A DNA stretch of 64,000 nucleotides. Origin: Halorhabdus sp. CBA1104. Lineage in GTDB: Archaea; Halobacteriota; Halobacteria; Halobacteriales; Haloarculaceae. The stretch is taken from NCBI RefSeq assembly GCF_009690625.1, contig NZ_CP033878.1, forward strand, positions 1,550,001 to 1,614,000, written 5' to 3'. The position numbers and the translations under genes are program-made. Within the stretch, counting starts at the first letter, position 1, and every line of letters starts with the position of its first letter. Under the pieces are notes generated by a model, which was not told the DNA's origin, made no database searches, and worked only from the letters and a program-made list of their open reading frames with translations. Below are positions 16,565 through 49,251 of the stretch, piece by piece.

Positions 16565-16987
16565 TCACCACTCGGCATCGAGTTTGTCGACGACGTACTC
16601 CCGGACGAGATCGGCTCCCCGGTAGAACGACAGCCAGATCGCACCGGCAAAGACGAAACCTGCAACGAGCGTATCCAGTACCGTCGTGAGCAGGCCCTGC
16701 CAGCCCACGATCAGAGAGAGAGTGGCGTCGAGGACAACCGTCCCGAAAAACAGCGGGGCGAAGTAGACGACGATGCGAACGAGGGGCTGTTCGCGCGCCC
16801 ACTGGTCCCAGTTTTCAACGACGAGGACGTAGAGGACGGCCGAGGAAAAGACGAGCCACAAGCCCGTGATCACCATGCCCTGGCGGGCAGTCTGAACGGT
16901 GATCAGGGATCCGGCGGTAAAGGCCGTGAGAATGCCCAAGCTGATCGCCCAAATCACTGCTTTCCCTCGACTGAAAGCTTCGCTCAT
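16565..16987 (-). CDS. Four-helix membrane protein of unknown function
   Basis: The 140-residue protein has four hydrophobic segments at roughly residues 10-30, 38-56, 70-92 and 98-120, with a short charged C-terminus. I do not recognise a family. It lies 124 bases downstream of the sugar permease gene on the same strand. A run of A residues at 17059-17063 (T on the coding strand), typical of archaeal termination, separates them, so it is probably not part of the transporter operon. Confidence 0.7.
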   Translation of the reverse strand: MSEAFSRGKAVIWAISLGILTAFTAGSLITVQTARQGMVITGLWLVFSSAVLYVLVVENWDQWAREQPLVRIVVYFAPLFFGTVVLDATLSLIVGWQGLLTTVLDTLVAGFVFAGAIWLSFYRGADLVREYVVDKLDAEW

Positions 16988-17111: not shown

Positions 17112-18029
17112 TTACGTCGCGATCCCTTCGGCGAACTGTTCGGCGAACAGCACGTAGATGACGATCGTCGGCAGCGCCGCGAGGAACGCTGCAGCCATCC
17201 GGAGCGGGAAGTTGACCCCGCTCAGGTCAGCACCGATCCCCGAGAGGATGAGCGTGATCGTCGCCGCCTGGTCCGAAGAGCTCCCGATCAGCGTCAGCGA
17301 GAACAGGAACTCGTTCCAGATCTGGGTGAACTGGTAGATCAACACGACGCCGATCATCGGTTTCGACAGCGGCAGGACGATGCGCGTGTAGATCTTCGTG
17401 ATGCTCGCACCGTCGACTTTCGCGGCCTCGACCAGTTCCGTCGAGATCGTCTTGTAGTACGACCGGAACAGGAGGAAACAGATCGGAATCCCGTAGGCGA
17501 CGTGGGTAATCGTCAGCTCTGCCAGCGTCCCCCAACGTTCGTTCGCCGGGATAATCGTGATTCCTTCGATGATCAGACCCTCCGAGAGCGGGAAGATGTT
17601 GACCCAGAAGTCGCTCAGCGGGACCAAGATCGCCTGGTAGGGCAGGAAGATGCCGAAGACGAACAGCAACACGACCGGCATCTGGCGACGCCAGTCGACC
17701 AGGGTGAGCCCGTAGGCAGCCGTACTCCCGAGAATCACGTCGAGTATCGTCGAGGGAATCGCCATCGCGAAGCTGTTGACGAACCCGCGAGCTAACTGAT
17801 CGAACGCCTGGCCCCAGCTTTCGAGCGTGAAGTTACCGGGGGTTGGTGGAAGGAACGGCGTCGTCGCGGCTCCGCTCGCTTTCAGTGACGTGACCAGTCC
17901 CGTATAGATCGGCGACAGGAAAAACGCCACGAAGGCGATGATCACGAAGTACAGCCCGAGCCGGCGGTAACTGATCTCCGGCAGGAGGCGTGCGACACCG
18001 TCGCGTTTCGAGGTGGTTGATTGACTCAT
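17112..18029 (-). CDS. Sugar ABC transporter permease, MalG/TsgC type
   Basis: This 305-residue inner-membrane protein has six predicted membrane helices. The EAA loop EAAKVDGASITKIYTRIVLP contacts the ATPase. It belongs to the CUT1 carbohydrate importer permeases. The ATG at 18029 starts one base beyond the stop of the partner permease, so they are translationally linked; a longer reading would enter that gene. It is the last gene of the importer set (ATPase, binding lipoprotein, two permeases). Substrate is inferred to be a sugar or oligosaccharide. Confidence 0.92.
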   Translation of the reverse strand: MSQSTTSKRDGVARLLPEISYRRLGLYFVIIAFVAFFLSPIYTGLVTSLKASGAATTPFLPPTPGNFTLESWGQAFDQLARGFVNSFAMAIPSTILDVILGSTAAYGLTLVDWRRQMPVVLLFVFGIFLPYQAILVPLSDFWVNIFPLSEGLIIEGITIIPANERWGTLAELTITHVAYGIPICFLLFRSYYKTISTELVEAAKVDGASITKIYTRIVLPLSKPMIGVVLIYQFTQIWNEFLFSLTLIGSSSDQAATITLILSGIGADLSGVNFPLRMAAAFLAALPTIVIYVLFAEQFAEGIAT

Positions 18030-18030
18030 T

Positions 18031-18996
18031 TTAGAGCGCCCTCGCTTTGTACTGGTAGTAGAGGTACGGCGCGACCACGAGCAGTCCCATCGCCAGCAGG
18101 ATGGTCGCGATCGCGGCGGCATACGCCCAGTGCTGGAGGTTGAACGCCTCGCGCACCATCAGCGTCGCGAGCACGTCAGTCCCTTTGGGGGGTCGGTACG
18201 TCCCGAACATCGCATAGAGGAACGTGAAGATCTTCAGCGCGAAGATCATCAGCACGACAGCTGCACTCACCGAGGCCGACTTCAACTGCGGGATGATGAC
18301 CCGCCAGTAGGTCTTGATGATGCTCGCGCCGTCGACCTTCGCGGCCTCGAACTGGTCGTTGGGAATCGACTGCAAGCCGGCCAGGAACACGACCATACAG
18401 TAGCCGCTGAACTGCCATATTAACGCGAAGATGACAGCTCCCAGCACCAACTGTGGATCCCCGATCCAGTTGTACGGTCCGAGGCCGAACAACCCGATGA
18501 AGGTGTTGACGAGTCCGTTTTCGAAGTTGTACATCCACAGCCAGAACTGGGCCGTCACGACAAAGGAAAGGGCCATCGGCAACAGGTAGATCGTCTGGAT
18601 CGCGCCCTTCTGGCGGATGTCTCGATCGAGGAGAATCGCCAGGAACAGGCCCAGGATGAGCGAGATGCTCGTGAACGCGACCAGCAGGACGAACGTGTTC
18701 CTGCCGGTCGAGAACACGGCCGGATCCGCCAACGCCTGGGCGTACATCTCAAAGTCCAGTTGGCTGTAGTCCGGCGGTTGGAGGAACCCCTCGTAATCCG
18801 TCAACGAGATCAAGAAGTTCCAGATGATCCCGCCGTAGACAGCCAGCCCCATCAGCAGTAATGGGATCAGCCAGAACGGCGAGGATCGAACGAAGTCACT
18901 CTTCCAGAACCGCCGTAAGCGTTCGCGCCTATCGGTCTCAGTAGCGTGGCCACCGCTAGCACCGGGTCCAGCTACCGTGTCTTGTGAACCTGCCAT
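18031..18996 (-). CDS. Sugar ABC transporter permease, MalF/TsgB type
   Basis: A 321-residue permease with about six helices after a hydrophilic N-terminus of about 40 residues. Its EAA loop reads FEAAKVDGASIIKTYWRVIIP. With the adjacent MalG-type permease it forms the heterodimeric channel of a CUT1 importer. The start follows the binding-protein stop by 30 bases. The order binding protein, MalF-type, MalG-type is typical of haloarchaeal glucose-type (tsg) transporters. Confidence 0.92.
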   Translation of the reverse strand: MAGSQDTVAGPGASGGHATETDRRERLRRFWKSDFVRSSPFWLIPLLLMGLAVYGGIIWNFLISLTDYEGFLQPPDYSQLDFEMYAQALADPAVFSTGRNTFVLLVAFTSISLILGLFLAILLDRDIRQKGAIQTIYLLPMALSFVVTAQFWLWMYNFENGLVNTFIGLFGLGPYNWIGDPQLVLGAVIFALIWQFSGYCMVVFLAGLQSIPNDQFEAAKVDGASIIKTYWRVIIPQLKSASVSAAVVLMIFALKIFTFLYAMFGTYRPPKGTDVLATLMVREAFNLQHWAYAAAIATILLAMGLLVVAPYLYYQYKARAL

Positions 18997-19026: not shown

Positions 19027-20376
19027 TTACTGTGAGACAACGTCGGTAAGGCCCGACACTGTCTGGTCGACGTTGTACGGCCCCATGAAGTTACTTCCAA
19101 TCACGTCCTTTGCCTCACTCAGCTGCTCTGGCGAGACGGCCAGGCCGTGTGCGATCGTGGGCGGGAACTTCTCTTTGTTCGCCAGGTGGTCGGCGTTCAT
19201 CTCGAGGAACGGCGTCAGCCGACTCGAATCGATATCGGTCCGGAGCGGGATCGCACCCTTGCGGTTCCCGAACTCGACCTGGGCGTCTTTCGTCCCCAGG
19301 AACTTCGCCCACATCTTCTGCTTGACCGGCGTGTTGGTGTCACGGGCGAAGGTGAACGCGTCGATGTGGAGCATGTACATGTCGCTCGTGCCCGGATACG
19401 CGATCCAGTCCCAGTCTTCCTGGTAGGAGACGCCACTGTCCTCGGCACGGTACATGCCGTACGCCCAGTTCCCCTGCTGGATGCAACCGGCGTTGCCATC
19501 CATCATCTGCTGGTTGCCCTCGGTGAAGGCGATCGTCGCAGCGTCACTGTTGATATGGTTTTCCAGCATCTCCTTGGTGACTTCGAGAGCGTTCCGGAGG
19601 TGGTCCTCGTCGACGTCCCCCTCGATGTAGTTCATGTAGGCGTCGTAGCCGCCATCCATGCCAAGGAAGTTCTGGAAGACCAGCTGGAGGGTCGTCCACG
19701 CACCCGACATGGCGTGAGCCATCGGGTCGGCGTCGGTTTCTTGACCGATCGTTTCGAACGCGTCGAGGAGATCGTTCGGATTGTCGATCGCACTCGGATC
19801 GACACCGGCATCATCGAAGACGTGCACGTTGTAGAACAGATTGTTCATCCGGTGAGAGACCAGCGGCATCGACCGGTACTCGCCGTTGAGCTGGGACTCC
19901 GTTGCCGCCCTGGAGTTCATCGTCTCCGTGTAGTTGTTCTCCTCCCAGACGTCGGTGATGTTTGCCAGCAACCCACCGTACTGGGTGATGTTCTGGCCGG
20001 GCCAGGCCTGCCAGGCTGCCGGCGGGTCCCGGTTGGCGAGCCGTCGCGCGACCACAGAGTCGAGGTTGACGTTCCCCGTCCCGCCGATCGGCCGGAAGTT
20101 GGTCGCCAGATCCGGGTACTCCTCTTTGAACATCGAGGTCAACTTCTCGACGGCCGCCGCACCGTCCCCGCCGGTCCAGGCGTGGAGGACTTCGAGCTCG
20201 GTATCGTTGGGTGTCGGCTCACTGCTCTCGGTCGTCGTATCTGTGTCCGCGGGGGCCTCGGTCGTCGTATCGCCACCGCCACAACCGGCCAACCCAGCCA
20301 TGGCAAGCCCTGCTGACGCTCCGAGAACACTCCGACGGGAAACGGTGTCGCCACCGGTACTGGTATCTTCTGTCAT
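19027..20376 (-). CDS. Tat-exported sugar-binding lipoprotein of the ABC importer
   Basis: The 449-residue extracellular solute-binding protein (family 1) starts with a twin-arginine signal, SRRSVLGASAGLAMAGLAGC. It combines the RR motif with a lipobox ending at Cys32, so it is probably exported folded and lipid-anchored. An acidic Thr-rich linker precedes the binding domain (LEVLHAWTGGDGAAAV). Conserved features such as EGNQQMMDGNAGCIQQGNW fit sugar-binding proteins. It lies 118 bases after the ATPase gene and has its own TATA region and a palindrome at 20395-20409, so binding protein and permeases can be transcribed separately from the ATPase. Confidence 0.93.
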   Translation of the reverse strand: MTEDTSTGGDTVSRRSVLGASAGLAMAGLAGCGGGDTTTEAPADTDTTTESSEPTPNDTELEVLHAWTGGDGAAAVEKLTSMFKEEYPDLATNFRPIGGTGNVNLDSVVARRLANRDPPAAWQAWPGQNITQYGGLLANITDVWEENNYTETMNSRAATESQLNGEYRSMPLVSHRMNNLFYNVHVFDDAGVDPSAIDNPNDLLDAFETIGQETDADPMAHAMSGAWTTLQLVFQNFLGMDGGYDAYMNYIEGDVDEDHLRNALEVTKEMLENHINSDAATIAFTEGNQQMMDGNAGCIQQGNWAYGMYRAEDSGVSYQEDWDWIAYPGTSDMYMLHIDAFTFARDTNTPVKQKMWAKFLGTKDAQVEFGNRKGAIPLRTDIDSSRLTPFLEMNADHLANKEKFPPTIAHGLAVSPEQLSEAKDVIGSNFMGPYNVDQTVSGLTDVVSQ

Positions 20377-20494: not shown

Positions 20495-21655
20495 TCAAGC
20501 CGGTTTTGCGCCTTTGAGTGGCCGGTCACCTTCGATCTCCCCGAGACTCCGATTGTGCAACGATTCGCCCGTTTCGGCATCGAAGAGGTGGATCGCACTC
20601 TCGGGCAGCCCGATCCCGATCGATTCGAGTTCGTCGACGTTTCGCATCCCGCTGATCGTCGACGTCAGCGCGGATTCAGTCCGGTCCTGACTCTCGAAAG
20701 CGAGGTGGACCGTGTTCTCGTCGCCCATCGGTTCGACGACGTCGACGGTAGCCGGGAACTCGTGTCTCCGTTCCGCTGCATCGAGAATCTCGACGTCCTC
20801 GGGCCGAATGCCAAAGACGAGCTCGTCGTGACCCTCGATGTTTGCCAGTACGTCGTCGCTGAGCGGGTACTCGAAGTACTCGCCGACGAGACGCCCATCT
20901 TCGAGCGTGACCTCGAGGAAGTTCATCGACGGATCGCCAATGAAGCCGGCGACGAACTGGTTGTTGGGCCGGTGATAGCACTCCAGTGGCGTCCCGACCT
21001 GCTGGAGTTCACCGTCGTTGAGGACGGCGATTCGATCGGACATCGTCATCGCCTCCGTCTGGTCGTGAGTGACGTAGATGGTCGTCGTATCGAGATCCTC
21101 CTGGAGGTGTTGGAGTTCCGTCCGCATCTCCGAGCGGAGTTTCGCGTCCAGATTCGCCAGCGGTTCGTCCAGCAGGAACGCCTCCGGTTCGCGGACGATC
21201 GCTCGGCCAAGCGCGACCCGCTGCTGTTGGCCCCCCGAAAGTTCACCGGGTTTCCGGTCGAGCAGCGCGTCGATCCCCAGCATCTCGGCGGCGTCCTCGA
21301 CTCGTGTACGGATCTCATCTTTCGAGAGGTCAGTGGCTTCCTCGAGCCCGAAGGACATGTTCCCGCGGACCGTCATGTGGGGGTAGAGAGCGTACGACTG
21401 GAAGACCATCGCCACGTCACGTTCCTGGGGCGAGAGGTTCGTAATCGGCTTATCGTCTAGACTGATCGTGCCCTCGGTGGGCATTTCGAGCCCGGCGACC
21501 ATCCGAAGGGTCGTCGACTTACCACACCCTGACGGACCGACCAAAACGAGGAACTCACCGTCCTGAATGTTGAGATCGAGATCGTCAACCGCGATAATCT
21601 CGCCGCTCTGATCCTGGAATTTTTTGGTCACTCCGTCGAGTATTACGTTCGCCAT
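20495..21655 (-). CDS. Sugar ABC transporter ATP-binding protein (MalK/UgpC type)
   Basis: A 386-residue ATPase that powers the importer. Walker A GPSGCGKST is at 40-48, the Q-loop in VFQSYALYPHM, the signature LSGGQ at 139-143, Walker B FLLDEPLANLD near 160-170, and the H-loop in THDQTEAM. The C-terminal third (after about residue 240) is a MalK-like regulatory OB-fold domain with FGIRPEDVEI. It is transcribed ahead of the binding-protein gene. Its promoter is a strong TATA element at 21676-21690. Confidence 0.95.
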   Translation of the reverse strand: MANVILDGVTKKFQDQSGEIIAVDDLDLNIQDGEFLVLVGPSGCGKSTTLRMVAGLEMPTEGTISLDDKPITNLSPQERDVAMVFQSYALYPHMTVRGNMSFGLEEATDLSKDEIRTRVEDAAEMLGIDALLDRKPGELSGGQQQRVALGRAIVREPEAFLLDEPLANLDAKLRSEMRTELQHLQEDLDTTTIYVTHDQTEAMTMSDRIAVLNDGELQQVGTPLECYHRPNNQFVAGFIGDPSMNFLEVTLEDGRLVGEYFEYPLSDDVLANIEGHDELVFGIRPEDVEILDAAERRHEFPATVDVVEPMGDENTVHLAFESQDRTESALTSTISGMRNVDELESIGIGLPESAIHLFDAETGESLHNRSLGEIEGDRPLKGAKPA

Positions 21656-21765: not shown

Positions 21766-23640
21766 TCAGTCCGCCGAGAGGTCGCCGACGTAGAGGTCGC
21801 CCTCGCTGTCGGTGTCGAACTCTTCGAGGGCGTCGTGGAGCGGGCGCGCGTATTGGGTGAGGTCTTGGGCACGTTCGGACACCGCAGTGAGTTCCGAGGC
21901 TTGTTCTTCGGCCGCACCGGCGACGATGCCCGATTCCGCGAGCGTCTCCTCACTCAGGGTCGCGACCTCACCGACCCGGGCGGCGATCTCGTTGAGACGA
22001 TCGACCTGTTCGTCCACGTCTTGGTCAGTTTCCTCGGCAGCAAGCTGCTCGAAGCTGTCGGCCAGGTCGTCGATCTCCGCTGAGACGTCCTGAAGGCGCT
22101 CTTTTTGATCGTCGGCATCGTCGGCGATCCGCTGGACAGAATCGGCAACGTGACCGCTCGCGACGCGAACGCTGTCGGAACTGGCCTGGAGGACCTCGCC
22201 GGTCTCCTCGACCCGGACGGCGAACTGTTTCAGTTCCTCGGTGGTCCGCTCTAGTTCCGCGACCATCTCGTTGAACGACGTCGCGATCTGATCCATCGCT
22301 TCGTTCTCCCCATCCGGGTCGAGACGTTGGGTCAGATCCCCGTCTGCACACTGTCGCATCGTGTCTGAGTATTCCTCAGCCTTCTGCTGGAGGTACTCGT
22401 TCATCCGCATCGCCTCTGCTCGGGAGACTTCGGCCTCTTTGCGAGCCCGTTCGGCCTCCGTTATCTGCTGGTTGAGCGACGAGCGCATGTTCTCGAACCC
22501 GTCGTACAGTTCACCGATAGCGTCGATCCGGGACGTCCCCGCTGTCGCTTCGAGATCGCCATCGCGAAGCTTGCCTGCCCAGTGGCGTAAGCGATTGAGG
22601 TCACGTGTCGTGTTGTACCCGATCGCGGCCCCCAAGACACCGACGAGGATGACGCCGCCGAGGGTAGCAAGCCGCCCCCATCGCGAGATGGCCCAGACGA
22701 ACCCGTAGACGCTCGACCGGGGTTCGTGGACGAGGACAGTCCAGTTCAGCGGGACGTTCGTGACACTGATCGGAGCATATCCCACAGTGTATTGTTCGTC
22801 GATAACAGCCGTTTTGGCCGCCATATCGGGGATCACACCAGCCGGCCGATCGGTGCCACGCAACGTCGCTGCGAGCGTGACCGGGTGCAGTGCCCGCTGG
22901 TCGCCGTACTGGCCGAGGACCTCCGCGCTCTCGCCAGCCACCTGTACGATACCGTCGTCGTTGACGACCTGCGTGAAACGATCGTCACTGGTCGTGTCGA
23001 TCGACGACGCCAGGTCAGCGACGGAGTACTCCATGACGAGGTACCGATCTGGATGGTCAGCGGCTGGGCTGACGAACGCGACGACAGGCGTCTCGCCAAC
23101 CCGATGGACGTCAGTGACGTGGACGTCCATCACGTCCAGCGAATCGAAGGGGGTAGACTGAATCCACGCGCGGGTCGTCTCTGAGAGATTCATCTCGAAA
23201 GAGATCTGCGGGCTGGCGACGACCCGGGGAGCATGCTCGGAATAATTCAGCAGATAGATGCCGTGAACGCCGTAGACGTTCCCGGCTGTCGTTGCCAGTT
23301 CCTGTTGGATATCGAATCGAGACCCCGGGTCTGTTCGACTCAACGCGGTGTCTTTCGATGCGAGTTTCACCGAGATAGAGTTGCGCTCGACCCACGTTTC
23401 GATCGCGTTTGCCTGTTGAGACGCCAGATTCTGGTACTCCTCTTTGACGTTCTGTTCGACCTGCTCGGCGACGGCCCCGGTTGCCGTCGCTCCGATAACG
23501 CCGATCGCCAGGCCCATGACCACCAAGATGAGTGCGAACTTGAGCGTGAAGCGCCGGCGGATGAAATTCGGCACGACTCGACTGAATACGGACCCCCCAT
23601 CGGACCCAGCCGTCGAATCGACCTCCCGATCATCTGTCAT
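21766..23640 (-). CDS. Chemoreceptor-like membrane protein lacking the CheA/CheW-binding tip
   Basis: The 624-residue protein has a membrane helix at about 32-52, a periplasmic-side Cache-like sensor region of about 270 residues, a second helix near 325-350 (GGVILVGVLGAAIGY), and two HAMP-like units (DGDLEATAG, DGDLTQRLD). A short coiled coil then ends the protein. In transducers the coil folds back at a highly conserved tip such as [14 protein letters not shown]. Here the helix turns at EETDQDVDEQVDRL and that tip is absent, although flanking heptads such as GAAEEQASELTAVSERAQDL remain. It should therefore be unable to recruit CheA/CheW. It lies 110 bases upstream of the sugar importer on the same strand. 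Confidence 0.85.
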   Translation of the reverse strand: MTDDREVDSTAGSDGGSVFSRVVPNFIRRRFTLKFALILVVMGLAIGVIGATATGAVAEQVEQNVKEEYQNLASQQANAIETWVERNSISVKLASKDTALSRTDPGSRFDIQQELATTAGNVYGVHGIYLLNYSEHAPRVVASPQISFEMNLSETTRAWIQSTPFDSLDVMDVHVTDVHRVGETPVVAFVSPAADHPDRYLVMEYSVADLASSIDTTSDDRFTQVVNDDGIVQVAGESAEVLGQYGDQRALHPVTLAATLRGTDRPAGVIPDMAAKTAVIDEQYTVGYAPISVTNVPLNWTVLVHEPRSSVYGFVWAISRWGRLATLGGVILVGVLGAAIGYNTTRDLNRLRHWAGKLRDGDLEATAGTSRIDAIGELYDGFENMRSSLNQQITEAERARKEAEVSRAEAMRMNEYLQQKAEEYSDTMRQCADGDLTQRLDPDGENEAMDQIATSFNEMVAELERTTEELKQFAVRVEETGEVLQASSDSVRVASGHVADSVQRIADDADDQKERLQDVSAEIDDLADSFEQLAAEETDQDVDEQVDRLNEIAARVGEVATLSEETLAESGIVAGAAEEQASELTAVSERAQDLTQYARPLHDALEEFDTDSEGDLYVGDLSAD

Positions 23641-24289: not shown

Positions 24290-26221
24290 CTACTGGAGGG
24301 CCTCCGCCGGGATCCGGTCGTGACGGTCGGCCACCGCCTGGGCATCCTCGGGAAGCAAGGCGACGAGCAAGACATCGACGTACTCCGAGAAATGATCGAC
24401 GAGTTTCGACGTTCGCTCGGCGTCGATCGCTTCCAAGGAGTCGAGAAGGATGAACGGGACGTCCTCGTAGACTTCGTGGGTGAGATACCCAGCGAGGGCG
24501 AAGACGAGCCCGATCAGTTCGCGCTCGCTTTCGCTCAGATTGTCGATCGTCTCCTCGTACCCAACGCCGTCGGCCGACTCCCGAATAACGTGTAGGTTGA
24601 AACTGCTATCGGCAGCTGGGCTAGCCTGGGACGAGCGCTTCTCGATCCAGACACGAGTAATGTTATCGTACCCCAGGACGTCGAGTAGCTCGTCCATGTG
24701 CTGGTTGAACGTCTCGACGGCCCGCTGTTCGAGGCGATCGATACGGGCACGCTGCTCGGCGATCTGGTCGCGCAACTCCGACCGTTGTTCGTTCAGATCT
24801 GCCACAGCCGGTAACGCCTGGATCGACTCGATGTCGTCGGTAACGTCTTCGAGTTGCTGATTGAGTTGGCCCCGTTCGTACTGTAAGTCGCTGAGCCGTT
24901 CGTACATCTCCAGTAGATCGTCGTCCCGGAGTTGCTGTGTGTCTGCAACTTCGCGTTCGAGATCTGCGATGGTGTCGGCGAGTTCCGACTGTCGCGATTC
25001 GAGTGTGGACCGACGCTCACGCCGCTGGTTGAGTCGCTTGCGCAGCGACGAGCGCTCACGTTCGATCCGGTCTTGTTCGTCGAGCGTCGTTTCGATCGTC
25101 TCCCGTTCGTCTTCGAGCGTCTCGACGCGTGACGTCACGTCTGTCCGCTCGGCGCGCTTTTGTTCGATGACCGCTCGAAGCGAATCGAGCCGAACATCGA
25201 CGTCGTTGCGAGTGACAGGACTCCCACACGTCCAACAGACCAAATCACGTTCGTCGTCCGGTGCCAGTTCGCTGGTCGGATCACTGTCGGTGGGTTCGAT
25301 GCCAGGCAGTTCCAGTGACCCGTCGAGTAGGTCCTGGTTGAATTCGACGATCGTAAACAGTGCGTTGATCGTCTCTTCGAGCTGTCGACGCCGTTCACGC
25401 GCGACGGCGAGATCCTCTTTGACCTGCTCGAGATCCTCGTCAGTGTACTCGACGCCCTCGTCTGTGCCGGTGAGTTCCGCCAGTTCCCCTTCCAGTGACT
25501 CGATCTCGGCTTCGACGACCTCGATCTCGTTTTCGACGCGGTTGTGCTCTTGTCGGGCCTCGTCGAGTTCTTCGACGAGTGAATCGGCCTCGGCCGCCGT
25601 TTCGTGATCGGCCTCGTAGGCGTCGATCTCCGTCCGAAGCGTGGCGATCTCGTCGTCGATCGACTCGACGTCCGCCTGGAGGGATTGTCGCCGATCCTCC
25701 AGGGCCGGCAGTTCGTCTTTCCGCTCACCGACCCGATCGATCCGGTCGTCGAGTTGCCGTTTTTCCCGCTGTAAGGACTCGATGCGGCGTTCGATCTCGT
25801 CCGTGTCGATCGGACGCATGATGATCTCGCGGAGGTCCCCACCCCGTTCGACTGCTCGTCGCGCCGGATTGTTTTCGAGCAACGTGACGAACGTCTCGAC
25901 CAGTGAACCGTCGGCAACGTACGGCTCCCCGTCTACGTGGACGTCTTCACCGTCTCGCCGGAAGGTCCGCTCGTACCGTTGGTCACCGATCTGAAGGGCC
26001 ACCGACCCAGTGTCGGCATCTGTCTTGATCGAGCCAGCCGTCCCGCCAAGAGCACTGTCGACCGCCGAAAGGAACGACGTCCGGTTGGTCGCATTGCGAC
26101 CGCGAAGAACAGTCACGCCGGGATCGATCGTCACGTCTGTCTGCTCGATCCCACCGACGTTCTCGACGGAGACAGTGATAGCATCGGCCGCCATATCCGT
26201 ATCGGTAGCTGAGTGGACCAT
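24290..26221 (-). CDS. Archaea-specific SMC-related protein (Sph3/RdfA-neighbour type)
   Basis: A 643-residue SMC/Rad50-like protein. An N-terminal ATPase half (VENVGGIEQ, P-loop region LRGRNATNRTSFL at 39-51) is followed by about 180 residues of coiled coil. A central hook with LVCWTCGSP (CxxC) follows, then a return coil, the signature NLSESERELIGLVFA and Walker B FILLDSLEAID. The P-loop is unusual: the invariant Lys is Arg. The start at 26221 has a TTTATA box 24 bases upstream; a TTG 141 bases further up would lack this and add an unrelated tail. It is divergent from rdfA, the arrangement reported for the cell-shape genes sph3 and rdfA of Haloferax. Confidence 0.85.
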   Translation of the reverse strand: MVHSATDTDMAADAITVSVENVGGIEQTDVTIDPGVTVLRGRNATNRTSFLSAVDSALGGTAGSIKTDADTGSVALQIGDQRYERTFRRDGEDVHVDGEPYVADGSLVETFVTLLENNPARRAVERGGDLREIIMRPIDTDEIERRIESLQREKRQLDDRIDRVGERKDELPALEDRRQSLQADVESIDDEIATLRTEIDAYEADHETAAEADSLVEELDEARQEHNRVENEIEVVEAEIESLEGELAELTGTDEGVEYTDEDLEQVKEDLAVARERRRQLEETINALFTIVEFNQDLLDGSLELPGIEPTDSDPTSELAPDDERDLVCWTCGSPVTRNDVDVRLDSLRAVIEQKRAERTDVTSRVETLEDERETIETTLDEQDRIERERSSLRKRLNQRRERRSTLESRQSELADTIADLEREVADTQQLRDDDLLEMYERLSDLQYERGQLNQQLEDVTDDIESIQALPAVADLNEQRSELRDQIAEQRARIDRLEQRAVETFNQHMDELLDVLGYDNITRVWIEKRSSQASPAADSSFNLHVIRESADGVGYEETIDNLSESERELIGLVFALAGYLTHEVYEDVPFILLDSLEAIDAERTSKLVDHFSEYVDVLLVALLPEDAQAVADRHDRIPAEALQ

Positions 26222-26398
26222 TGATCGGAAAGTTAGGAGACGTCCTATAAATTCCCATCGGTAGTGTGGGTAGATTCCACAGGCGACACTGGTCAGTGAT
26301 TGACGTCGATCGACCGTAGGCTCCGATAGTATCATGTCCGCGGACCCGGTACGTACGGCCAATGTATGTGCTCTCGCTGACCGCTGAGGTGACTATCG

Positions 26399-27084: not shown

Positions 27085-27837
27085 ATGACACGAGCGGACG
27101 ACACAGGCGTCAAAACTGCCCGGACGAGTTTCGCGATCGTCGAGGCGATCGCCGAACTCGATGGCGCTGGAATCAGTGAACTGGCACGGCACCTCGATCG
27201 CTCGAAAGGCGGCATTCACAAGCACGTCCACACCCTCGCCGATCTCGGCTATCTGGTCGAGGACGACGGCACGTATCGGCTCGGTCTCGGCTTCTGGACG
27301 CTCGGGACCGACGTCCGGGATCGACTGATGCCGGAACAGGTTCGCTCGATCATCGACGACCTCGCAGCCTCGATCGGGCACGTCGTCACGCTCGTGATCT
27401 ACGAGAGCGGCACTGCAGCAGTCGTCTATTCGAAGGCCCCCGCCACGGCCTCAGTACAGCCTTTTGGGGACGGTGACTCGCTCCCGTTGCACGCGACTGC
27501 CGGCGGGAAGGCGATTCTCGCGTACTTACCCGACTCGGAGTGTGACTCGGTACTTGAAGGCGATCTGGAAGCCTACACCGAGGCGACGCTGACCGATCCC
27601 CAAGCCCTCCGTGCAGCGCTTGGGGACGTGCGCCAGCAGCGACTCGCCCGTGACGATGGCGAATACGATCCGGCCGTCGAGTGTGTCGCGGCACCGATCG
27701 TCGACTCCGGGGGCTATCCCCGAGGGTCGGTCGTCGTCACGAGTGGCACCGAAGAACTCCTCGGCGGGACTCTCGAAGCGGACGCGAGCCTCATCGTCAG
27801 CGCCTCGAAGTCGCTCGAAAACACCATGACCGACTGA
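27085..27837 (+). CDS. IclR-family transcriptional regulator
   Basis: A 250-residue regulator with an N-terminal winged helix (ISELARHLDRSKGGIHKHVHTL, residues 31-53, then the wing DDGTYRLGLGFWTLG). It ends with an IclR effector domain (LPLHATAGGKAILAYLP, and AAPIVDSGGYPRGSVVVT). IclR proteins of haloarchaea mostly control sugar or sugar-acid catabolic genes. Its 3' side now faces decayed sequence with a 22-bp palindrome, then the galactose genes, so its original target gene may have been lost. No membrane or zinc features. Confidence 0.92.
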   Translation: MTRADDTGVKTARTSFAIVEAIAELDGAGISELARHLDRSKGGIHKHVHTLADLGYLVEDDGTYRLGLGFWTLGTDVRDRLMPEQVRSIIDDLAASIGHVVTLVIYESGTAAVVYSKAPATASVQPFGDGDSLPLHATAGGKAILAYLPDSECDSVLEGDLEAYTEATLTDPQALRAALGDVRQQRLARDDGEYDPAVECVAAPIVDSGGYPRGSVVVTSGTEELLGGTLEADASLIVSASKSLENTMTD

Positions 27838-46863: not shown

Positions 46864-49251
46864 CTAGCGGTGGGTGTCGTCCGTCTCGCCGGTTTCGAAC
46901 TGGTCGATAAGGTCCCTGAGATCGGCCGCTTGGCCGGAGAGGGTCTCGATGCGCTCCGAGACTTCCGTGATGGAGGCAGTCTGCTCTTGTGAGGCCCCGG
47001 CGACGTTCTCGGCTTCGGCGGCCGTCTCCTCGCTGATCGACCCGACTTCGTCGGCCATCGCGACCACTTCTTCGGTCGAAGCCGCCTGTTCGTCGGTCGC
47101 ATCGCTGATCGCTTGGATACCGTCGTTTGCTTGTTCGATCTGGCGGACGATATCGGTCAGCGTCTCCGCGGCGTTGTCGACTGTCGCTTTCCCTGTCTGG
47201 ACGCTCTCGTCCATCTCCCGGATGTCTGCCACCGTATCGGTTGTCCGAGACTGGACGGTATCGATCAGTGACTCGATGTCGTCGGTGGCTTCTTGGGTCT
47301 CTTCGGCGAGTGTCTTGATCTCGTTGGCCACAACCTCGAAGCCTTGGCCCGCATCACCGGCGCGATTGGCCTCGATCGCGGCGTTCAACGCGAGCATATT
47401 CGTCTGGTCGGCGATATCGTCGATCAGCGTCGTGACTTCGCCGATCCGGTCCATCTCCGCCGCCAGCGCCTCGACTTGCTCGATGGCCTCGGCGGATTTC
47501 CGTTCGATCGTCTCGATTTCCGCGGCTGCCTGCTGGGCGGACGTGCGGCCGGACTCACCAGCCTCGACGGCCCCCTTCGACTTGGCGGCCACTTCGTCCG
47601 TCGAGGAAGTAATCTCCTCGACCGTCGCCGAGAGATCGGTCATCTCCTGTGAGACTTGTTGGATGTTCTCGTTTTGTCGGTCGGCCCCTTCGGCGATCTG
47701 CTGGACCGATTGACTCACCTGTTCGCTGGCGGATTTGATCTCCCGGGCGCTCGCAGAGATCGTGTCCGTCGAGGAGTCGACAGTGCCGGCGAACGCTTCG
47801 ATACGATCGATCGTCGTTTCCAGCTCGGCGATCATGTCGTTGAAGTTCTCGGCGATCTCGACCATCGCCTCGTACTCGCTGTCGGTCTCCATCCGCTGGG
47901 TGAGATCGCCCGCGGCTGCCCGGTTCATCACAGCACTGAACTGCGACGCCTTCGCTTCGAGCGCCGAAGCCATCGACTCGGCGTCGTCTCGGGCCTGCTC
48001 GACGTCAGTGATCAGCGCCTGGATGTCCGTCCCCATCTCTTCGAGGGCCGCTCCGAACTCACCGGGAACGTCCTCTTCGAGGACCGGATCGTCGAACCGC
48101 TTGTCTGCAAGCGCATCAGCCTGCTCGGCAGCCGTTCCCAGGTACGCCTGCATCGACGCGAACGAATCGTACAGCTGGCCCATCTCGTCGACGCGTGTCG
48201 TCTCCGGAAGCGTACTGTCGATCTTGCCGTTTGCGATGTCACCGGCCGTTTGGGCGACGGTCGCAAGCGACTGTGCAGTCCCGCGACCGATCGTCACCCC
48301 GACGAGGAGCAACGCGCCGACAGCCAACGCGACGAGTAACGCGATGTTCTGGGAGACGGCCGACTGCAGTGCGAACGCACGCTCAGCGGGGACGTGATAG
48401 AGGAGAGCCCAGTCGGTCCCGGTGATCGGCGTGTATGCCATGACGTACGTGCCTTCGTCCATCCCCGTTCCTGCGGAGACGCGTGCGTAGCCAGATGCAC
48501 CGCCCAGAGCGGCGGTAATACTCTCAGAACCAGTGTTCCCGGTCGCTTCGTACTGGTCGAGTATCGATGCCTTGCGGTTGTCGAGGAGGATCGTACGATC
48601 GGCACTGAGGACTTTCACGTCCCCGGTCGCAAACGGCGAGGTGAATTCGTGAGAGCGCGCCTCCAGAGACACTGTAAGGACGACGGATTCAGTCTCACTG
48701 ACCGGCTGGACGAACGCGATGACGTCCTGCCCATCGTGCTCGTATGGCCGGGACGTGTCTGTCGGCCCGGAGGCGACGACCGCACCACTGCTGTCGGTCC
48801 ATGCCCCCTCGACGCTGGCGAGAGACGCCCCAGTCAGGTCGTCGTCGGTACTGGCGATCACCTCGCTATCGGCAGTCGTCACGTAGTGCAACGCCTGGAT
48901 ATCGGCCGGCAATCCGATAAGCTTCCCTTCGAGCCATCGCTGGTGGGCTGACGACGACAGTGAGTCCGACTGGTCGGCAAGCGAGTCCGCGAGGAACGAC
49001 GTCGTCGACTGTTTGGTCGCGGCCCAGTCTGCGATCGAGCTGGCCTGGGAATCCGCGACGCCACGGATCTGTTCTTCGGTCTGAGCTTCGACGAGTCCGC
49101 CGGTCTGGAAGTGGATCGCCACCCCGCCGACGACGAGGACGGCGACCACACCGAGCAACAGCACACCGAACTTCGCCGCGTAGCGACGCCTGACGACACC
49201 CGGAAGCGCGCTCTCGATCGCCACCACGAATCGCTTGCGAAGGGAACTCAT
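46864..49251 (-). CDS. Methyl-accepting chemotaxis transducer (complete signalling tip)
   Basis: A 795-residue receptor. Helix one (residues 25-48, [19 protein letters not shown]) and helix two (near 300-325) flank a Cache-type sensor. HAMP units follow (DGQ-like [17 protein letters not shown]), then a long coiled coil with the invariant tip [18 protein letters not shown] and [15 protein letters not shown], which recruits CheA/CheW. Glutamine/glutamate-rich flanks are methylation regions. Its ATG overlaps the stop of the binding-protein gene by four bases. This pair matches the BasB-BasT arrangement of Halobacterium, where a lipoprotein presents the ligand to the transducer. Confidence 0.94.

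Follow-up and report, generated by a model that had tools for sequence, protein, structure and literature searches.

What does a chemoreceptor signal to once it has lost its kinase-control tip? The question is raised by a protein of 624 residues encoded in the window analysed here, a 64,000-nucleotide stretch of the Halorhabdus sp. CBA1104 chromosome (contig NZ_CP033878.1, positions 1,550,001 to 1,614,000). The tip is a near-universal part of chemoreceptors; this protein lacks it, and its gene lies beside a sugar importer. The parts of the protein, and the full-length transducer used for comparison, are as follows.

21766..23640, minus strand: tipless chemoreceptor-like protein (open reading frame of 624 aa, with dCache sensor, two HAMP units, short hairpin and tail)
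22687..23484, minus strand: dCache-type extracellular sensor, residues 53-318 (by alignment to 5t65)
21769..22473, minus strand: output module, residues about 390-624, comprising linker, HAMP2, short hairpin and C-terminal tail (a clade in the tree, bounded by the G221 break point, and standing alone in L127-L129)
22249..22365, minus strand: second HAMP, residues 426-464 (best stretch for Pfam PF00672)
21820..22218, minus strand: short coiled-coil hairpin, residues about 475-607 (by alignment with tip-bearing transducers and low-confidence AlphaFold2 models)
46864..49251, minus strand: tip-bearing transducer used for comparison (Pfam MCPsignal, 1.1e-38)

The initial annotation described an intact sensor followed by two HAMP units, and both are borne out. 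In a structure model, residues 53-318 take the double Cache fold, matching many dCache domains at Z 16-17; the best solved match is 5t65, the ligand-binding domain of PctA (Z 17.1, 224 residues aligned, rmsd 3.3). Two Pfam HAMP stretches lie between membrane and coil, as in MCPs. Both arm bases of the hairpin that follows align with tip-bearing MCPs. A weak AlphaFold2 model of the whole protein (pLDDT 58) has two long helices, 442-536 and 542-607, with a short turn between them at 537-541, and a separate low-confidence model of residues 320-624 (pLDDT 54) repeats this layout; the turn is the predicted site where the tip would stand. A PDB sequence search at E 0.001 returned sensory rhodopsin II transducer chains and one rhodopsin-chemotaxis protein chain.

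The tip itself is missing. A Pfam scan of the window protein finds no MCPsignal domain, a search of the whole genome with MCPsignal gives no match at gene 21766-23640, and in the hairpin every Pfam and NCBIfam model stays below its cut-off; MCPsignal still weakly touches 8 of 30 short hairpins from the family (best 6.3e-5). Because a text pattern overlooked two tip-bearing proteins (in L004 and L121), we adopted for tip detection a tip-region HMM built in this analysis, which gave at most 5.9 bits to 72 tipless ORFs and at least 93 bits to 29 tip-bearing ORFs (near-duplicates included in both sets). The far end of the coil is retained, EVATLSEE...AAEEQ...FD of the window protein aligning with EVGSISEE...QEQ...FE of the transducer. 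Anchor spacing measures the gap: DLSATV539 to EVGSISEE735 is 196 residues in the full transducer, DLADSF525 to EVATLSEE558 only 33 in the window protein, so that 163 hairpin residues are missing. Given the predicted turn, the arms would have lost about 78 residues (11 heptads) and about 85 residues (12 heptads), and the proposed symmetrical deletion of heptads is therefore roughly right. Truncation or frameshift was considered and is ruled out by the surviving C-terminal arm and by the position of the genome's MCPsignal matches, all of which sit elsewhere.

Nor is the short hairpin a product of chance, since its profile matches 69 genomes. This profile, A1, was made from the C-terminal 155 residues of 30 copies. 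In a sample of 116 genomes of the family its listed matches fell either at 163 bits and above or at 76 bits and below. Over 146 genomes of the family at E 1e-30 it found at least 69 carriers in 10 of 22 genera, the lowest scoring 140 bits, and in a sample of 293 genomes of the order at E 1e-25 it found at least 39 genomes, all from the window's family among the matches listed. These genome counts are lower bounds, with the best 33, 26 and 13 candidates scored per genome in the 116-genome, 146-genome and order samples, respectively, as are those of our other genome searches, where the best 4 or 22 were scored. From the names of relatives we infer that the sampled genome family is Haloarculaceae; those with copies include Halorhabdus salina (91%), Halapricum hydrolyticum and Halosimplex species. 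The window's own genome holds a second tipless copy (G000:C1:419754-421541), 45% identical to the window protein. In all we examined 85 copies, counting identical proteins once: that of the window and 84 unique ones in fetched loci, 82 of them with over 1.5 kb on both sides. Fourteen hairpin positions, AAEEQ included, are invariant in 30 diverse copies. The family carries no name in the libraries searched, and we did not find it described in the literature searched, a coverage outside which most subscription journals fall.

The output module and the sensor have different histories. In a tree of the sensor and HAMP region (89 rows, 66 tipless and 23 tip-bearing), tiplessness takes six changes, five of them forced by supported branches, and a single clade of tipless rows is rejected (AU p 7e-54). 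When the tree is built from the linker, HAMP2 and hairpin base, a branch with SH-aLRT 99 separates these 66 tipless rows from the rest. Each tree was made by a quick method and comes with long-branch warnings; neither includes two shorter MCPs (in L053 and L097) or the duplicates L002 and L084, and L085, which repeats the L075 gene, was retained. Because the module is one clade and the sensors are not, the same output module has passed from one sensor to another. A tandem pair in G221 (L125:33-4334) marks the break point. Here about 175 bp separate a tipless gene from the tip-bearing receptor that comes next; in 40-column windows the two are 31% identical over the first 40 residues and 61-85% from about residue 40 to 386, dropping to 21-38% from the HAMP1-HAMP2 linker onward. 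The two have nearly the same sensor but differ in output, the first being tipless and the second bearing a normal tip. Elsewhere, in L054 and L056 (G075 and G119), two tipless receptors stand in tandem, followed by what we take to be a glycerol-kinase-like gene.

The module also occurs without a sensor. In G360, G363 and G364 (L127-L129) it stands alone as a protein of 272-311 aa with no TM segment, adjoining and downstream of an H-NOX gene (identified by Pfam in two cases and by similarity in the third), and no other H-NOX match turned up in the loci numbered L040 and above. In G363 the two genes share 8 bp, if an in-frame ATG is the start, and in G364 about 250 bp lie between them; a cupredoxin-like gene comes next in all three loci. 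In two of these three proteins the EEQ patch is changed and the tail is gone, so neither feature is essential everywhere. H-NOX signalling pairs in bacteria differ from this arrangement, in which the output beside H-NOX is a tipless module.

We therefore propose, tentatively and at a little short of an even chance, that the family represents a new signal-output module of Haloarculaceae: the base of a chemoreceptor without its kinase-control tip, self-standing, shuffled among dCache-type sensors and H-NOX, and signalling to an undiscovered partner. By analogy with known HAMP and chemoreceptor families, the protein would act as a dimer. The dCache domain would change state, either on its own or with a neighbouring binding lipoprotein as intermediary, and TM2, HAMP1 and HAMP2 would relay the change to a short four-helix bundle formed by the dimer. 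This bundle, together with its tail (the AAEEQ patch, RYA.PL and then usually EHEF[VY]F), would engage or let go of a cytoplasmic partner whose gene lies elsewhere. The module would thus serve as an interchangeable output piece on different dCache-type sensors, or, in its sensorless form, set beside H-NOX. Our preferred reading, a sensor with a chemoreceptor-derived, CheA-independent output module whose partner is encoded elsewhere, has about an even chance. Independence from CheA, the existence and identity of the partner, and the ligand are what we infer here.

The main rival keeps the family within chemotaxis. Tipless proteins might pair or cluster with full-length transducers through the membrane-proximal coil, or compete for adaptation enzymes, and so tune CheA without touching it. 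We hold this to be possible though rather unlikely. Its strongest point is co-occurrence: MCPsignal proteins are present in 67 of 69 carriers against 39 of 77 non-carriers, and CheA, in the 116-genome sample, in 50 of 53 carriers against 26 of 63 non-carriers, counts that ignore shared ancestry. The module is thus almost never found without chemotaxis, which speaks against a CheA-independent reading. The retained coil, moreover, aligns with the base of full-length transducers, and the G221 tandem places a tipless and a tip-bearing receptor with nearly the same sensor side by side. That the module forms a clade of its own argues the other way, as do the soluble H-NOX-linked copies, which have no membrane anchor to share.

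The C-terminal tail bears on this rival too. The coil ends in F.T....HEF[VY][FY] in the 27 non-importer copies compared, with EHQF, ERKF and EREF as variants in further copies. An F-x-F within the last 22 residues is found in 14 of 18 fetched tip-bearing transducers of other families (L107-L124) and in none of five of this family. The resemblance of the former to the tipless EF[VY]F is as a chemotaxis modulator would have it, and a shared docking role for the two kinds of tail is a speculation we offer as such. The CheR pentapeptide of bacteria is reported to be absent from Halobacteriales in the available part of one study (PMC7390727). The EEQ patch, which would be the candidate for a methylation site used by CheR/CheB, is invariant in 30 copies, and is kept in G335, a genome without a CheR match.

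G335 is the exception that weighs most against the chemotactic rival. In this draft genome (89% complete, 60 contigs) we found no match for CheA, CheW, CheR or MCPsignal, where six genus-mates carry at least 7-16 MCPsignal matches each. Its tipless gene is intact, EEQ patch and tail included, and adjoins what we presume to be kdgK-, pyruvate kinase- and glucokinase-like genes, as in its relatives. Comparison with the G103 copy gives 86% identity and pN/pS 0.13 for the module, and 49% and 0.59 for the sensor; against the G191 copy pN/pS is 0.26 for the module and 0.76 for the sensor. A constrained copy in such a genome favours a function without CheA, although a single draft genome makes a slender case and chemotaxis may have been lost only recently. 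We considered G321 as a second chemotaxis-free carrier and rejected it: CheR is present, an MCPsignal match lies below threshold, and the lack of a proper match is explained by the incompleteness of its 380-contig assembly. A third carrier without CheA, G327 (71% complete), has CheW and MCPsignal. The suggestion in the initial annotation that the window protein is non-chemotactic thus gains indirect support from the absent tip and from G335, and has against it the MCPsignal chemoreceptors of 67 of the 69 carriers.

The initial annotation also suggested that the protein could talk to the adjacent transporter or another partner. In the version considered here, it would be a dedicated regulator of the sugar importer and contact its ATPase or binding protein. 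The genes concerned are as follows.

20495..21655, minus strand: CUT1 ABC importer ATPase of the UgpC/MalK type (NCBIfam UgpC, 439.8 bits against a cut-off of 432; 110 bp from the sensor gene; synteny)
19027..20376, minus strand: substrate-binding lipoprotein (Pfam SBP_bac_1; synteny)
18031..18996, minus strand: CUT1 permease 1 (BPD_transp_1)
17112..18122, minus strand: CUT1 permease 2 (BPD_transp_1)
16565..16987, minus strand: 140-aa protein ending the operon (same place in 9 of 10 operons; no NCBIfam match)
27085..27837, plus strand: IclR-type regulator (Pfam)

With a MalK/UgpC-type ATPase bearing OB/TOBE, an SBP_bac_1 protein and two BPD_transp_1 permeases, this is a CUT1 importer. The called start of permease 2 is probably too early, since its relatives have 305-311 aa. 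A large ORF with an AAA_23/SMC-like ATPase match lies beside the operon at 24290-26362, and occurs also in L046, L047 and L096 of the Halorhabdus group.

We find dedicated regulation of the importer improbable. The order tipless gene, ATPase, binding protein, permease, permease is conserved, being found at 10 of the 85 copies, in ten genomes of four genera (G000, G195, G268 and G323; G259, G274 and G109; G191 and G283; G338), and so is not peculiar to this genome. The IclR regulator, about 3.4 kb away in the window, is divergent from the sensor gene and directly adjoins it in five of the ten operons. Moreover, the seven closest orthologs of the binding protein (72-100%, the window's own included) all lie within such operons, and a further copy, in L093, lies upstream of, and in the same orientation as, a different CUT1-like set, with intervening genes (it is excluded from the counts). 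However, 75 of the 85 copies lie outside the operon, and homologs of the binding protein at about 45-51% occur also in genomes without a tipless gene, for example G299.

Binding proteins as such discriminate little. Another 18 copies are immediately beside a binding lipoprotein, 10 of the Peripla_BP_6 type and 8 of a larger SBP_bac_1 type (six assigned by Pfam, the rest by similarity). An enrichment of such neighbours at tipless genes is nevertheless unsupported, at 28 of 85 copies against 5 of 21 tip-bearing receptors of at least 600 aa; the control used the same reference proteins and its matches are weak (28.7-63.1 bits), so that other kinds of binding protein were possibly missed on both sides. 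Since ordinary transducers too adjoin binding proteins, in these five of 21 cases, the arrangement looks like a general habit of haloarchaeal receptors and tells against a dedicated importer regulator. No recurring partner gene was found among the selected neighbours of the copies that we scanned. These neighbours also include a KDPG aldolase, an amino-acid kinase with ACT domains and an ammonium transporter-PII fusion (Pfam).

Within the window's subgroup, a link to the importer may still hold. Among nine importer-linked copies compared the tail has decayed: REFFYP remains in L099, the tail is gone from L051 and the window's clade has D/E-LY. The median ratio of module distance to sensor distance is 0.65 in importer-linked copies (31 pairs) against 0.40 in other copies (105 pairs), a descriptive figure as pairs share branches. 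An eroded tail and a module evolving faster relative to its sensor are what a change of partner would leave, and by the same signs the window protein is derived within the family, its module being less subject to extra constraint. That extra constraint is small in the importer-linked group, given pN/pS of 0.41 for the module and 0.55 for the sensor between the window's copy and that of G191. The importer-linked form is one derived branch of the larger tipless family; here the gene heads a CUT1 operon, the tail has diverged, and the importer, or something connected with it, may be the partner. The proposed conversation with the transporter accordingly fails as a property of the family and may survive in this branch. 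Galactose or a galactoside is a reasonable guess for what is imported, because galT and galK (NCBIfam), a gene that we take to be galE-like, and the IclR regulator are nearby; the sensed signal need not be a sugar.

That the copies are merely decaying chemoreceptors without function is scarcely credible: the part thought essential has gone, but open frames and conservation across genera, pN/pS of 0.12-0.13 in both module and sensor between the window and G195 copies, and the tight conservation of the hairpin in 30 copies place them under constraint and contradict this reading.

How does the proposed output module compare with known systems? The haloarchaeal transducers (Htr; 44H-type MCPs) share with it the dCache-type sensor, the TM helices, the HAMP pair and the membrane-proximal coil; the tipless family differs in having no tip, about 163 fewer hairpin residues and an output region that forms a separate clade. 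BasT/BasB and CosT/CosB of Halobacterium salinarum likewise pair a receptor with a substrate-binding protein, as do the 18 of 85 tipless copies adjacent to one and the 10 more in the CUT1 operon, but BasT and CosT bear a normal tip and are transducers of the chemotaxis system. The 44H class is reported to be the dominant one among archaeal MCPs (PMC9680633); the binding proteins BasB and CosB are reported to co-purify with Htrs, 6 of 18 of which interact with both CheA and CheW1 (PMC3579733).

Surveys of chemoreceptors should take note that censuses based on MCPsignal would miss tipless proteins. If our proposal of a self-standing output module is true, the base of the coil can serve as an output in its own right, since a large family drops the tip yet keeps its sensor and membrane-proximal relay under selection and distributes the shortened output over several sensors. 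In nature's own experiment, the family would then show what HAMP and the proximal bundle can signal to without CheA, and would offer a route to the partner.
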